A DNA stretch of 64,000 nucleotides from Acidobacteriota bacterium. GTDB lineage: Bacteria > Acidobacteriota > Vicinamibacteria > Vicinamibacterales > UBA2999. Positions 18,964-52,605 of the stretch are shown piece after piece (position 1 is the first letter of the stretch; each line of letters starts with the position of its first letter). Under the pieces are notes generated by a model. That model did not search any database and was not told the origin of the DNA. It worked only from the letters and a program-made list of their open reading frames with translations. Location: positions 124,001 to 188,000 of the forward strand of contig CAUJDN010000035.1 of the NCBI GenBank assembly GCA_963169195.1, written 5' to 3'. The position numbers and the translations under genes were made by a program.

Positions 18964-20073
18964 ATGAGATCCCCCGTTTCCTCCCTCGCCCTGGCCGTTC
19001 TCGTGGCCACGCTGGCCGGCCCCGTGGCCATCGGGGCCCAGGCCGACCAGTCGCGGCTGACCGGGCGCGTCACGGATGGGTCGGGCGGCGCACTGCCCGG
19101 TGCCACCGTGACGATGACCGGCCCGGGCGCGTCGAGGCCGGTCACGGTCGTCACCGACGAGGTCGGCCAGTACCAGACACCGCCGCTCCCTCCCGGTGCC
19201 TACAGCGTCACGTTCGAGATGTCCGGCTTCGAGACGCGGACGAATCCCACGATCGTGCTCGGCCCCGGCGAAGTGTTCGTCCTCGACCGCCAGCTGGGCC
19301 TGGCCGCCCTCACCGAGACCGTGACCGTCACCGGCGAGGCCCCCAAGCCGCCTCCGCCTCCGGCCGCGCCGCTGCCTCCGCTGCGGACGCGTCCCCAGGC
19401 CGTGCCGGTACCGAAGGCCATGCTCGCCTCGGTGTGCGGACCCGACAAACCCGCGGATGTCAGCTACACCGTCGGCCACATCGCCGCGCACCGCGACGAC
19501 CCGCGGCGCGAGCTCTACGGTCCCGGCGACGTCCTGCTGGTGGACGTCGGCGCCGACATGGGGATGAAGGCCGGCCAGAACTTCGTCGTCCGGCGCCGCT
19601 TCCGCTACGGCGACAAGAGCGCGCCGGCCAAGCACGCGACCTTCGGCGAGCACACGGCCGGGCTCGTGCAGGTGGTGGACACCACGCCCGAGACATCGGT
19701 CGTCGTCGTCGTGTACGCCTGCGGTGAGTTCATGGCGGGTGATGCGCTGGAGCCATTCGATCCGATGCCCGTCGTGACCGCGCAGGCCGAGGGTTCGCCG
19801 CAGTTCGACGACCCCGCGCGCATCGTGTTCGGCGAGCTCGGGCGCGTCACCAGCGGGCCGCAGCAGCTCATGGTCATCGACCGGGGCTTCAATCAGGGCG
19901 TGGCACGGGGTCAGCGCCTCACGATCTTCCGCCGCTCGATGGGCGAGCGCGGGCCGGCCACCTCCGTCGGCGACGCCATCGTCGTCGTGACGCGGCCGCA
20001 GTCGGCGACGATCCGGATCGAGCGCGTCTCCGACGTCGTCGAGGTGGGAGACCTCGTGGCACTGCACAGGTAG
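18964..20073 (+). CDS. Exported protein with carboxypeptidase-regulatory domain
   Basis: 369 residues, starting at ATG 18964 with GGAG 9 nt upstream. Signal peptide MRSPVSSLALAVLVATLAGPVAIGAQA. Residues about 28-125 are a carboxypeptidase-regulatory-like (Ig-like) domain: SRLTGRVTDGSGGALPGATVTMTG, YQTPPLPPGAYSVTFEMSGFETR, LTETVTVTGEAP. This is the module usually found at the N-terminus of acidobacterial TonB receptors. Here it is followed by a proline-rich linker and a second domain (about 155-369) of unknown function, with repeated GD/GQ-type beta turns (YGPGDVLLVDVGADMGMKAGQNFVVRRRF, DRGFNQGVARGQRLTIFRR) that look like two copies of one fold. Probably periplasmic. Confidence 0.8.
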   Translation: MRSPVSSLALAVLVATLAGPVAIGAQADQSRLTGRVTDGSGGALPGATVTMTGPGASRPVTVVTDEVGQYQTPPLPPGAYSVTFEMSGFETRTNPTIVLGPGEVFVLDRQLGLAALTETVTVTGEAPKPPPPPAAPLPPLRTRPQAVPVPKAMLASVCGPDKPADVSYTVGHIAAHRDDPRRELYGPGDVLLVDVGADMGMKAGQNFVVRRRFRYGDKSAPAKHATFGEHTAGLVQVVDTTPETSVVVVVYACGEFMAGDALEPFDPMPVVTAQAEGSPQFDDPARIVFGELGRVTSGPQQLMVIDRGFNQGVARGQRLTIFRRSMGERGPATSVGDAIVVVTRPQSATIRIERVSDVVEVGDLVALHR

Positions 20074-20158
20074 CTGGCGCGGCGTCCTCCGACGGCCGCA
20101 CGGCCGGGACAGTTCCAACCGCTCTCCGACGGGTTTCGTCGAAAAGTCCGTGGCGTGT

Positions 20159-20195
20159 TTCTCCTCCGTTTGTCGAATAGACAGATGGAGGAGAA
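20159..20195 (+). promoter_or_regulatory. Long dyad that sequesters the Shine-Dalgarno of the next gene
   Basis: TTCTCCTCCGTTTGTC (20159-20174) and GACAGATGGAGGAGAA (20180-20195) pair at 14 of 16 positions around the loop GAATA. The right arm contains the ribosome-binding site GGAGGAG, placed correctly before ATG 20202. Folded in RNA, it would hide the site. As DNA, it could be a repressor operator. Confidence 0.6.
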
Positions 20196-20201
20196 CCAGC
20201 C

Positions 20202-20543
20202 ATGTCACAGACCGCAGTTCAGGAACCGAAGAAGGAGCGCGGGCCGCTCAACGGCGTGGTCACGCCGACCCTGTTCGCCACCAACGATGGCCTCACCTGC
20301 GTCCATGCGCTCGTGGCCACAGACCTGCCCTGGCCCGGGACGGTGTTTCTGAGCCAGAACTGGAAGTTCACCGCGCCGGTCTACATCGGCGACACCATCA
20401 CGGCCCACGCCGAGGTACTGAAGGTGCACCAGGCCAGGCCGGTGTCGCAGCTGGCCGTCCGCGTCACGCGTCAGACAGGCGAAACGGTCCTCGAGGGCGA
20501 AGCCTGGTGCTACCGGATCACGCCCGGTGCGGGCCTGCCCTAG
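20202..20543 (+). CDS. Short MaoC/hotdog-like protein lacking the dehydratase catalytic segment
   Basis: 113 residues. The C-terminal two thirds match a MaoC-type hotdog fold: PGTVFLSQNWKFTAPVYIGDTITAHAEVLKV, then VTRQTGETVLEGEAWCYRI. Family dehydratases or hydratases carry a D-x4-H active-site segment (such as GDxNPxH) about 30-40 residues before this strand. Here that part is short (GVVTPTLFATNDGLTCVHALVATDLPW) and has no such motif. It may be a thioesterase- or acyl-binding-like protein, or a decayed dehydratase. The ribosome-binding site lies in a strong dyad. Neighbours give no pathway clue. Confidence 0.62.
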   Translation: MSQTAVQEPKKERGPLNGVVTPTLFATNDGLTCVHALVATDLPWPGTVFLSQNWKFTAPVYIGDTITAHAEVLKVHQARPVSQLAVRVTRQTGETVLEGEAWCYRITPGAGLP

Positions 20544-20655
20544 TCCTACGCGAAGCGCCCACCGGGCCGCGAAGCGGCGAGGCCCACCGTGAGGCCTACC
20601 GTGCGAAGCGCGGCCCATCCGGAACAACCCCCTCCCCGCTCTCGTCCTAGCCCCC

Positions 20656-23172
20656 GTGGACGATCTCAAGGTCTCGCTGCGGCTGCTGATGAGGTCTCCC
20701 GGCTTCTCCCTCGCCGCCATCGTCGTGCTGGCGCTCGGCATCGGGCTCAACGCCACGATGTTCAGCGTGGTCTATGCGTTCACCATCGCCGGCCGGCCGT
20801 TTCCGGAGCCGGACCGCATCGTTCAGCTGTATTCACGCGACGCGCGGACCACGAACGACTACCGCGCCTTTTCCTACCCCGTCTACCAGGAGCTGGCCGG
20901 GCGCGCCGACATGTTCAGCGGCCTGCTGGCACACAACGCCACGATCGTGGGCATCGGCGAAGGCGAGCAGTCACGCCGGGCCTTCTCGGTGATCGCCAGC
21001 GCGAACTACTTCGACGTGCTCGGCGTAACGCTGCTCCAGGGCCGCACGTTCTCCGCCCAGGAGGATCGGCCCGGCCAGGACATTCCGGTCACCATCGCCA
21101 GCCATGCCTACTGGAAGCGCACCGGGTTCGATCCGGGGCTCGTCGGCAAGACGGTCCGGGTCAACGAGCGGCTCTTCACCATCATCGGCATCGCCCCGGA
21201 GGGCTTCACGGGAACGATGAGCGTGTTCGGGCCCGAACTCTTCTTCCCGCTCGGGGTGTTCCACACGCTGGCGAACGACTTTCAGGGCGAGAGCACGCGG
21301 TCGCTGCGGCGCGCGGACGCGTACAACCTGTTCCTCGTCGGGCGCCTGAAGGACGGAGTGGCCGCTTCCGGGGCATCGGTGGGGCTGGAGCTCGTCGGCA
21401 GGAGCCTGTCCCAGGCCTTCCCTGTCGAGCACGAGCACCAGGTGCTGTCGCTGGCGCCGCTCCCGAAATTCTCCACGGGCACGTCGCCGGCGAACGAGAC
21501 CGTGCTGGGCACGCTCGGTGCCCTGATGATGGGCCTGACCGGCGCCGTGCTCCTGACGGTGTGCCTGAACCTTGCGTCCATGCTGCTGGCGCGAGGACGC
21601 GCGCGGCGCAAGGAGTTCGCCGTGCGCCTGGCCCTCGGCGGCGGGCGCGGGCGCATCGTCCGACAACTGCTGGTGGAGGGCCTGCTGCTCTCGATCGTGG
21701 GCGGTTCACTGGGCGTGGCGCTCGGTCTCTACGCCATCGACTTCCTGACCACCTCGCTGTCCAGCATGGTGCCCATCACGCTGACGCTCGGGAGCATGGC
21801 CTCGCCGGCGCTGGTGGGCGGGTCCATCGGCTTCTGCCTGCTCGCCACGATCGGCTTCGCGCTGGGACCGGCGCTCAAGCACTCGCGCGCGGACATCCTC
21901 ACAGACCTCAAGGTGCAGGCGGGCGACGACCCGGCGCCGCGGCGGTGGCGCTTCGTGCCGCGCAACCCGCTCGTGGCGGCGCAGGTGGCGCTGTCGCTGT
22001 GCCTGCTCATCGCGGCGGGCCTCTTCCTCCGCATGGCGCTCGTCGCGGCCAGCACGGATTTCGGCTTCCGCGCGGACGACACCGTGCTTGCGGAAGTGGA
22101 CAGCCGCCTCGGCGGGCTGGACGAGGCGCGGAGCCTGGACGCGTACGCGCGGATCGAGGAGCGGCTCGCGTCGCTGCCGGGCATGCAGTCGGCGAGCATT
22201 GGCGCCATCGTGCCGATGGGCATGATCAGCATGGGCAAGGCGGTGCAGCGCGCGGGGGTGAGCCCTCCGCCCGGCTCGAAGCCGTCCACGCCCGAGGCCG
22301 GCCAGAGTTTCGGTGCGCCTTGGAACGCGATTGGCGCCGCCTATTTCGACGCGATGGGCGTGCCGGTGCTGCAGGGACGCACCTTCACGCAGGCGGAGGC
22401 CTTCGGCAAGGGTGCGCCGCTCGTGGCCATGCTCGACGAATCGCTGGCCCGCAGGCTGTGGCCGGACGGCTCGGCGCTGGGCCAGCGGATTCAGTGGGCG
22501 GCCGAGGAGGGCGGCAAGCCCGGCGAGCCGATGGAAGTCGTGGGCATCGTCGCCCCGACGCGGCTCGGCCTGTTCGAGCGTGAGCCGCGCGGCAATGTTT
22601 ATGTGCCCTTCGCCCAGGGCTTCATGAGCAGCGCGTTCTTTCACGTGCGGCCGGCGGCGCCGGCGATCGGCCTCGAGGACACCGTGCGTCGCGAGCTGCG
22701 GGCCACGGCGCCAGGCGTGCCGATCTTCGGCGTGCGAACGTTCGCATCGCACCTCGAGAATGCCGCGGAGTACTGGATGCTGCGGCTGTCGACGTCCCTC
22801 TTCGCGTTCTTCGGCGCCATGGCGATGATCGTCGCCCTGGTCGGCATCTACGGGGTCACGTCCCACGCGGTGGCGCGGCGCACGCGAGAGATCGGCGTGC
22901 GCATGGCCGTGGGCGCCCGGCCGGCCGCGGTCTTGCGCATGATTCTCTCCGAGAGCCTTCGGACCACGACGACCGGCGTCGCCGTGGGGTGGGTGCTGGG
23001 CCTGGGTATCGGCCGCGTGCTGGCCAGCACGTTCGTTGACATGCAGGCTTTCGATCCGTGGACCTTCGCGCTGCTCCCTGTCGGTTTCCTGGCAGCCTCG
23101 ATCGTGGCCACGTGGATGCCGGCCCGGCGGGCAACGGAGGTGAACCCCGTCACGGCGCTCCGGACCGAGTAG
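20656..23172 (+). CDS. Orphan MacB/FtsX-type ABC permease (acidobacterial duplicated permease)
   Basis: About 838 residues from GTG 20656. The start matches the family opening DDLKVSLRLLMRSPGFSLAAIVVLALGIGLNATMFSVV. There are two permease halves. The first has a MacB-type periplasmic domain (LLQGRTFSAQEDRPGQDIPVTIASHAYWKR) and an FtsX core (NLASMLLARGRARRKEFAVRLALGGGRGRIVRQLL). The second repeats this (YFDAMGVPVLQGRTFTQAEA..., VGIYGVTSHAVARRTREIGVRMAVGARPAAVL) and ends MPARRATEVNPVTALRTE. No ATPase gene is adjacent, which is usual for these acidobacterial duplicated orphan permeases. Probable role is envelope export or mechanotransmission; the partner ATPase is unknown. Confidence 0.9.
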   Translation: MDDLKVSLRLLMRSPGFSLAAIVVLALGIGLNATMFSVVYAFTIAGRPFPEPDRIVQLYSRDARTTNDYRAFSYPVYQELAGRADMFSGLLAHNATIVGIGEGEQSRRAFSVIASANYFDVLGVTLLQGRTFSAQEDRPGQDIPVTIASHAYWKRTGFDPGLVGKTVRVNERLFTIIGIAPEGFTGTMSVFGPELFFPLGVFHTLANDFQGESTRSLRRADAYNLFLVGRLKDGVAASGASVGLELVGRSLSQAFPVEHEHQVLSLAPLPKFSTGTSPANETVLGTLGALMMGLTGAVLLTVCLNLASMLLARGRARRKEFAVRLALGGGRGRIVRQLLVEGLLLSIVGGSLGVALGLYAIDFLTTSLSSMVPITLTLGSMASPALVGGSIGFCLLATIGFALGPALKHSRADILTDLKVQAGDDPAPRRWRFVPRNPLVAAQVALSLCLLIAAGLFLRMALVAASTDFGFRADDTVLAEVDSRLGGLDEARSLDAYARIEERLASLPGMQSASIGAIVPMGMISMGKAVQRAGVSPPPGSKPSTPEAGQSFGAPWNAIGAAYFDAMGVPVLQGRTFTQAEAFGKGAPLVAMLDESLARRLWPDGSALGQRIQWAAEEGGKPGEPMEVVGIVAPTRLGLFEREPRGNVYVPFAQGFMSSAFFHVRPAAPAIGLEDTVRRELRATAPGVPIFGVRTFASHLENAAEYWMLRLSTSLFAFFGAMAMIVALVGIYGVTSHAVARRTREIGVRMAVGARPAAVLRMILSESLRTTTTGVAVGWVLGLGIGRVLASTFVDMQAFDPWTFALLPVGFLAASIVATWMPARRATEVNPVTALRTE

Positions 23173-25095: not shown

Positions 25096-25120
25096 GGATA
25101 TACTCATCGCATGAGTATCC
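25096..25120. promoter_or_regulatory. Antitoxin operator/promoter: dyad over -10 and start codon
   Basis: TACTCAT (25101-25107), CGC, ATGAGTA (25111-25117) is a perfect 7-bp dyad, extended outward by GGAT/TCC with a small bulge. It overlaps a -10 TATACT (25099-25104) and the ATG at 25111. Such a site fits autorepression by the ribbon-helix-helix antitoxin. Confidence 0.55.
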
Positions 25121-25365
25121 GGCTGCAGGTCGTCATGGACGAGGCCGAGCTCCGCGAGATCCAGCGCAGCGCGCGGCGTCAGCGGATGACGGTCTCGGAG
25201 TGGGTGCGGAACGCGCTGCGTGCGGCCCGGCGGGCGGAGCCTGGACCGGACCGCGGCCGGAAGCTCGAGGCCATCCGCGCCTCGAGCCGTCACGCCTTTC
25301 CGACGGCGGACATCGATCAGATGCTCGCCGAAATCGCCCGCGGTCGCGCGGAGTCCGACCGGTGA
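25111..25365 (+). CDS. Ribbon-helix-helix antitoxin of a type II toxin-antitoxin pair
   Basis: 84 residues. The N-terminus [41 protein letters not shown] has the strand-helix-helix pattern of MetJ/Arc-type (RHH) DNA-binding antitoxins, with a polar strand followed by the [11 protein letters not shown] helix. The C-terminal tail ([25 protein letters not shown]) is the likely toxin-binding part. It overlaps the PIN toxin gene by 4 nt (GTGA). The start codon sits in a putative operator. Confidence 0.88.
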
Positions 25366-25757
25366 CCTTCGTCGATTCGAACATCCCGATGTACCTGGTC
25401 GGGGCCGCGCATCCCCACAAGGCCGATGCCCAGCGATTGCTCGAGCGCGCGGTCGCAGACGGCGACAAGCTCGTGACGAGCGCCGAGGTCTTCCAGGAGA
25501 TCCTGCACCGCTACACCGCCATCGGCCGGCGCGATGCGATCCAGCCCGCCTGGGATGCCCTCGCCGCCGTGACCGACGAGGTGTTCGCGATCGAGGTGGC
25601 CGACGCCGACCGGGCCCGGGCGATCGTGCTCGAGCGCCAGGCGCTCTCGGCGCGCGATGCACTTCATGCCGCGGTGATGGAGCGGCATGGCGTGACGCGC
25701 ATCCTCAGCTTCGACGCCGGCTTCGACACCCTGCCGGGCCTTACCCGCCTGTACTAA
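25362..25757 (+). CDS. vapC: PIN-domain ribonuclease toxin (VapC type)
   Basis: 131 residues from GTG 25362. PIN motifs: first Asp in [14 protein letters not shown] (Asp5), Glu in [13 protein letters not shown] (about 43), Asp in [17 protein letters not shown] (about 94), and Asp in ILSFDAGFD (about 117). PIN toxins cleave tRNA or other RNA and are held inactive by the partner antitoxin encoded just upstream. The four-base overlap gives translational coupling. It converges with the oxidase gene 33 bp downstream. Confidence 0.9.
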
Positions 25758-51788: not shown

Positions 51789-52513
<725 letters not shown>

Positions 52514-52514
<1 letters not shown>

Positions 52515-52560
52515 GCAGAAGGCAAGAGGCAGAGGAGCTTTGTCCCTTTTGCCTTCTGCC
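52514..52560 (+). terminator. 12-bp stem of simple-sequence words after the SOD gene
   Basis: GGCAGAAGGCAA (52514-52525) pairs exactly with TTGCCTTCTGCC (52549-52560), loop 23 nt; the left arm starts in the SOD stop codon. The right side continues TTTTGCCTTGCC. It could terminate SOD transcription, although the following T-run is short. Confidence 0.5.
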
Positions 52561-52605
52561 TTTTGCCTTGCCTTCCCTCCCCCTCGTCCGTCATCCTTCT
52601 CTGCT

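Follow-up and report, generated by a model that had tools for sequence, protein, structure and literature searches.

The dyad that ends a few bases before position 20202 of the window (the whole 64,000-nt stretch of Acidobacteriota DNA that was analysed) is a real structure beyond chance, and comparison with related genomes indicates that it belonged to a four-gene operon led by an OsmC gene that has since been lost. Our preferred reading, tentative and given somewhat less than an even chance, is that the dyad was an inverted repeat embedded in the promoter of this operon, with its left arm inside a promoter-like block and its Shine-Dalgarno (SD) sequence hidden only in RNA reading through from upstream. 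The promoter role of the block, the position of the RNA start, the read-through and any use made of these are what we infer. In the window genome itself (G000) the dyad is most likely a relic, since deletion has left nothing of the operon but a fused 113-aa remnant.

The 16-nt arms form 14 Watson-Crick and two G-T pairs around a 5-nt loop (Table 1), which confirms the 16-bp arm pair with 14 matches described in an earlier sequence-only reading and accounts for its two remaining positions. That reading also placed GGAGGAG in the stem, which is correct, and 6 nt before the ATG; the gap to the ATG at 20202 is in fact 8 nt, and it shrinks to 6 nt when the site is read as GGAGGAGAA. A pattern of the dyad allowing up to three mismatches matched only the site itself in the window, on both strands, and a repeated or mobile element was rejected partly on this ground.

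Table 1. Positions in the window of the dyad, the promoter-like block and the neighbouring reading frames.
Feature	Position	Strand	Remarks
Upstream gene for a CarboxypepD_reg domain protein, codirectional	19012..20073	+	possible source of read-through; no terminator-like site in 19900-20700
Bipartite promoter-like block TGGCG-N15-TGTCG	20151..20175 (20151-20155 and 20171-20175)	+	from recurrence; 25/25 identical in G004
Left arm of dyad (anti-SD arm)	20159..20174	+	TTCTCCTCCGTTTGTC; 16/16 identical in G004
Loop GAATA	20175..20179	+	5 nt; 1/5 changed in G004
Right arm of dyad, contains SD	20180..20195	+	GACAGATGGAGGAGAA; 4/16 changed in G004
Shine-Dalgarno GGAGGAG	20187..20193	+	in right arm
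113-aa fusion reading frame	20202..20543	+	deletion remnant, three pieces
OsmC start piece of fusion frame	20202 to ~20283	+	by comparison with G004
FAD monooxygenase piece in fusion frame	~20278-20300	+	about 20 nt
MaoC C-terminal part of fusion frame	from ~20302	+	by comparison with G004

RNA from 20130 to 20230 was predicted to fold at -47.2 kcal/mol (z -5.9), with none of 200 shuffles equally stable, and when the SD and tail were kept fixed and only the upstream part was shuffled the z was -6.0 and 0/1000 shuffles were equally stable. The dyad was further compared with 99 background gene starts having an SD match of at least 5 nt, drawn from about 0.5 Mb of the window genome and its relatives (the window, six regions surrounding related loci and another 20 pieces no longer than 20 kb). 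In this background, where start codons and SDs were chosen by a script in a crude automatic way, the start behind the dyad had the lowest z of all (-7.0); below -3 it was joined only by the OsmC gene of the relative G047, and the remaining 97 were above -3. A first background of 39 starts had included the OsmC gene of G004 twice; the set of 99 lacks the OsmC starts of G004 and G059, probably because of overlapping frames. It is the long stem that is rare, not an anti-SD/SD pair before an ATG, which is loosely common: the pattern TCCTCC-N8-40-GGAGGA-N3-9-ATG was matched in 50/59 genomes, and G000 has five matches compared with three for the reversed control. Such pairs were accordingly rejected as a genome-wide device, the matches being frequent, with only a loose excess over the reversed control. 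Folding with successive 5' ends gave a probability of 1.0 that the SD is paired for RNAs beginning at or before 20160 and of 0.40-0.57 for those beginning at 20165-20184, in which the SD is about half free. Masking of the SD, as proposed in the earlier reading, is thus supported by folding for any RNA that contains both arms.

The gene behind the dyad is not the MaoC-like gene that it was taken for. The Pfam MaoC match of the frame at 20202-20543 covers profile positions 62-117 of 123, falls below the cut-off and lacks the N-terminal half of the domain, whereas the intact MaoC homologue of G047 passes the cut-off. In the same-genus genome G004, the match to residues 30-111 and the match to residues 1-31 are separated by about 3.1 kb. 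The order in G004 is dyad, intact OsmC (195 aa), flavin oxidoreductase, FAD monooxygenase and complete MaoC; Pfam supports the OsmC and FAD_binding_3 genes of G004 and the copies of the first flavoprotein and of MaoC in G047. About 3 kb of this OsmC/flavoprotein/flavoprotein/MaoC operon (L012 4447-7876) are absent from the window genome, although the flanks in the window are collinear with G004 on both sides. The sequence CCACCA is common to both sides of the first fusion junction and all three pieces are in their own frames. No OsmC was found in the window genome at E 1e-20, and a 3.2-kb operon query against G000 returned the known 106-nt stretch only. The frame thus appears to be a deletion-made fusion of OsmC, FAD monooxygenase and MaoC and not a working MaoC gene, which rules out a MaoC gene with its own leader; it may also be an assembly fault at the deletion. 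In the MaoC piece dN against G004 is 0.02 and dS is 0.56, and given this low dN relative to dS the loss of the operon may be recent. The case illustrates that a gene label resting on half a domain can mislead.

OsmC genes at E 1e-55 or better were found in 7/162 genomes of the order, 10/193 genomes of the class and 8/396 genomes drawn from the phylum, one of the latter with three copies. Eighteen upstream sequences were compared, the window remnant and those of 17 OsmC genes. Strong folds masking the SD were present in G000, G004, G047 and G059 (z -6.3, -3.7, -3.6 and -4.5), with a probability of at least 0.93 that the SD is paired; with the SD fixed during shuffling, z was -3.6 for G004, -3.8 for G047 and -4.5 for G059, and at most 3/1000 shuffles were equally stable. 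Such a fold is therefore found in 3/17 OsmC genes, with different stems, and is absent from most others. The strong hairpin of G190 (z -3.9), which lies over the block, masks the SD only weakly (probability 0.70, equalled by 10.8% of shuffles), and the other 13/18 leaders have z above -2.5. The anti-SD/SD pairing of G047 spans two enclosed self-contained hairpins, and the inner stem of G047 differs from that of G004 by paired changes; G059 has a different stem. The four differences between the right arms of G000 and G004 keep pairing or improve it in G000, which hints at a constraint on the fold itself. Covariation of the arms, the check suggested in the sequence-only reading, thus gave a mixed answer, with strong masking folds of differing stems in 4/18 leaders and not in the other 14/18. 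A larger collection comprised 80 OsmC loci of named genomes; 49/80 of their upstream sequences were viewed by eye, and among these the dyad was seen in the G004 record only. Several Actinobacterial OsmC genes in this survey (L064, L073, L074, L076, L081, L083, L085 and L102) have repeated CCTTCC/GGAAGG words upstream, followed in several of them by TAGCGTC-like words, perhaps the sites of another regulator as judged by eye.

The left arm of the dyad overlaps a promoter-like block, TGGCG[G/T]... followed by TGTCG, that recurs upstream of OsmC genes; the arm lies in the spacer and second half of this block. Between G000 and G004 the block has 0/25 changes, compared with 4/16 in the right arm and 3/6 in the rest of the leader (together 7/22), and in an alignment of four leaders a stretch stays conserved, in contrast to the right side of the hairpin. 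Nine OsmC upstream sequences were scanned without bias for pairs of five-base words at a fixed distance, and TGGCG-N15-TG.CG was found in five of them (G004, G047, G059, G010 and G088), whereas 277/300 shuffled sets reached two and 23/300 reached three, the maximum. A wider form, TGGCGG[G/A]-N15/16-CGT, occurs in 8/18 upstream sequences, whereas none of 300 shuffled sets had it in more than one; some of the sequences counted here had also served to discover the motif. Among 96 background upstream sequences it occurs in two, those of the OsmC gene of G047 itself and of the SBP56 gene of the same genome. G000 and G004 have TCGA in the second half where most others have CGT, and when this form is added the block is present in 10/18 upstream sequences. 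It starts 50-105 nt before the start codon, and the distance between its two halves changes by one base, which is also a trait of -35/-10 promoters. In G010, G088, G171, G172 and G483b the block is present and a significant hairpin is not. Given that the block recurs, also in upstream sequences that have no hairpin, the best reading of the left arm is that it belongs to a predicted DNA element of the promoter kind.

Promoters of ECF sigma factors are bipartite, with near-fixed spacing and a CGT-like second half. The block shares this bipartite form, but its TGGCGGG -35-like part was matched to no named ECF group and no sigma factor gene was linked to it. A scan for promoters of the sigma-70 type found none in 19900-20700, and the sigma factor serving the block may be of another type. 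A sigma-54 promoter was rejected by eye, since no GC stands where such a promoter would need it. A literature search on promoter mapping in Vicinamibacter returned no match.

If the block is a promoter, RNA would start within the loop or the right arm, a few bases past TGTCG. Transcripts from this promoter would lack the anti-SD arm and be translatable, and RNA arriving from the codirectional upstream gene, which ends 128 nt before the fusion frame, would contain both arms, fold and have its SD hidden. Because the SD is paired when the RNA includes the left arm and about half free when it does not, only read-through RNA would be masked, and the outcome would be a filter by which the operon is translated from its own promoter only. 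Transcription starting inside the dyad, which the sequence-only reading had named as a ground for abandoning its proposal, is on this reading the likelier case. No intrinsic terminator (a stem followed by a T run) was found in 19900-20700. Neighbours were checked at nine OsmC loci that have the block: an SD-masking hairpin is present at both loci whose neighbour is codirectional (G004 and G059) and at one (G047) of the seven whose neighbour is divergent. This tie between neighbour orientation and hairpin is suggestive only, with nine loci and a pattern noticed after the fact. Counter to a filter, G047 masks its SD despite its divergent neighbour and the hairpin of G190 masks weakly; counter to a promoter with no role for the hairpin, the good match between the arms would be left unexplained. 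The exceptions of G047 and G190, the TCGA form of G000 and G004, the negative sigma-70-type scan, the folds with different stems and the changes that keep pairing are among the reasons why the promoter-embedded reading is placed below an even chance.

Arrangements of this kind are known from other systems. At the outer-end inverted repeat of IS10, with its promoter pIN, read-through RNA folds and hides the SD of the transposase and the internal transcript starts inside the repeat; there, however, the repeat is a transposon end and a site for the transposase, whereas at the dyad nothing mobile was found. There is also a likeness to the leader hairpins of the phage T4 genes e (lysozyme), soc, 49 and I-TevI, which have the SD and/or the start codon in the stem (PMC3014915). 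For gene e, long early transcripts fold, while late-promoter transcripts lack the hairpin and are well translated, a promoter being situated within the coding DNA of the stem's 5' strand (PMC3014915). As in gene e, the SD of the dyad is in the stem when both arms are transcribed. The T4 examples are phage genes whose late promoters have been mapped and whose repression has been tested, whereas here we deal with a bacterial operon and a promoter of another type predicted from its sequence. That chromosomal operons of Vicinamibacteria use promoter-embedded hairpins as read-through filters, which would restrict translation of an OsmC/flavoprotein operon to RNA from its own promoter, a function kept while the stems were replaced between lineages, is a broader proposal that we regard as doubtful. 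If true, it would extend an arrangement documented in T4 and familiar from IS10 to the control of bacterial operons and would provide a simple insulation of an operon from a busy upstream gene.

The sequence-only reading had offered an RNA switch or a repressor operator. Both are weakened, since one arm alone is conserved and this arm belongs to a block that is also found where there is no dyad. RNA thermometers and riboswitches that sequester the SD hold it inside a stem near the start codon, and the dyad could be such a cis-acting element (a thermosensor, a ligand switch or a site bound by a repressor protein) in the normal mRNA, with the promoter further upstream. The SD-masking hairpins with different stems before OsmC in G004, G047 and G059, the paired changes between the inner stems of G047 and G004 and the pairing preserved or improved by the right-arm differences agree with this. 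We nevertheless consider it unlikely: a conserved promoter-like block lies over the left arm in G004 and G047 and explains that arm as DNA, most other OsmC upstream sequences have no hairpin, the stability of the continuous 16-bp stem is very high for a thermosensor, and no Rfam family fitted at the gathering score in 19900-20700 (one chance match at E 0.51 was far below it).

Binding of a repressor dimer to the palindrome as DNA, over the -10/+1 region, appears quite unlikely to us. The palindrome is placed where an operator over a promoter would be and G000, G004 and G047 all retain its TGTC...GACA core, but half-sites conserved at a fixed spacing were not found: in G047 the spacing is 7 nt instead of 5, G059 and G010 have lost the palindrome, and between G000 and G004 only one arm is identical where an operator should hold both. 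The window has no further copy and no adjacent regulator gene was identified in it. An absence of any function is improbable in our view, though the operon is deleted in the window genome and therefore dead there, and though block-bearing loci without hairpins exist. On this account the pairing of a pyrimidine-rich promoter spacer with a purine-rich SD would be accidental, the C-rich spacer opposite the G-rich SD favouring it. Against accident stand the z of -6 to -7 here, the values below -3.5 at three other OsmC loci with the SD fixed, and the 0/97 other starts below -3.

Block pattern searches for further targets gave 26 matches compared with 3 for the control in 59 genomes, and 25 compared with 5 in nine genomes, most matches in both searches falling in coding frames. 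The candidates that emerged are the SBP56 gene of G047 and, in G172, the genes for a BBE-type (berberine-type) FAD oxidoreductase and a methyltransferase; a TGGCGGGTTTC...CGT block was seen before each of these genes (L224, L222 and L207). This suggests a possible small regulon of an unnamed sigma factor or activator, and it would point to an uncharacterised promoter class common to OsmC, SBP56, berberine-type oxidoreductase and methyltransferase genes. The second block match on contig 37 of G004, TGGCGGGTTTCCCCTCTCCTTGTCG, was rejected as a sister dyad; it lies between two divergent kinase genes and is better taken as the leader of the opposite gene. A dyad-like inverted repeat of G004 (L189, about 1470-1530, between two divergent Ser/Thr kinase genes) contains on the opposite strand the likely SD of one of the kinase genes.

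Elsewhere in the window, a 17-nt inverted repeat (94% complementary, arms 15 nt apart) was noted at 52513-52561, and at 25111-25757 a small gene is followed by a gene for a PIN-like protein, by eye a toxin-antitoxin-like pair.
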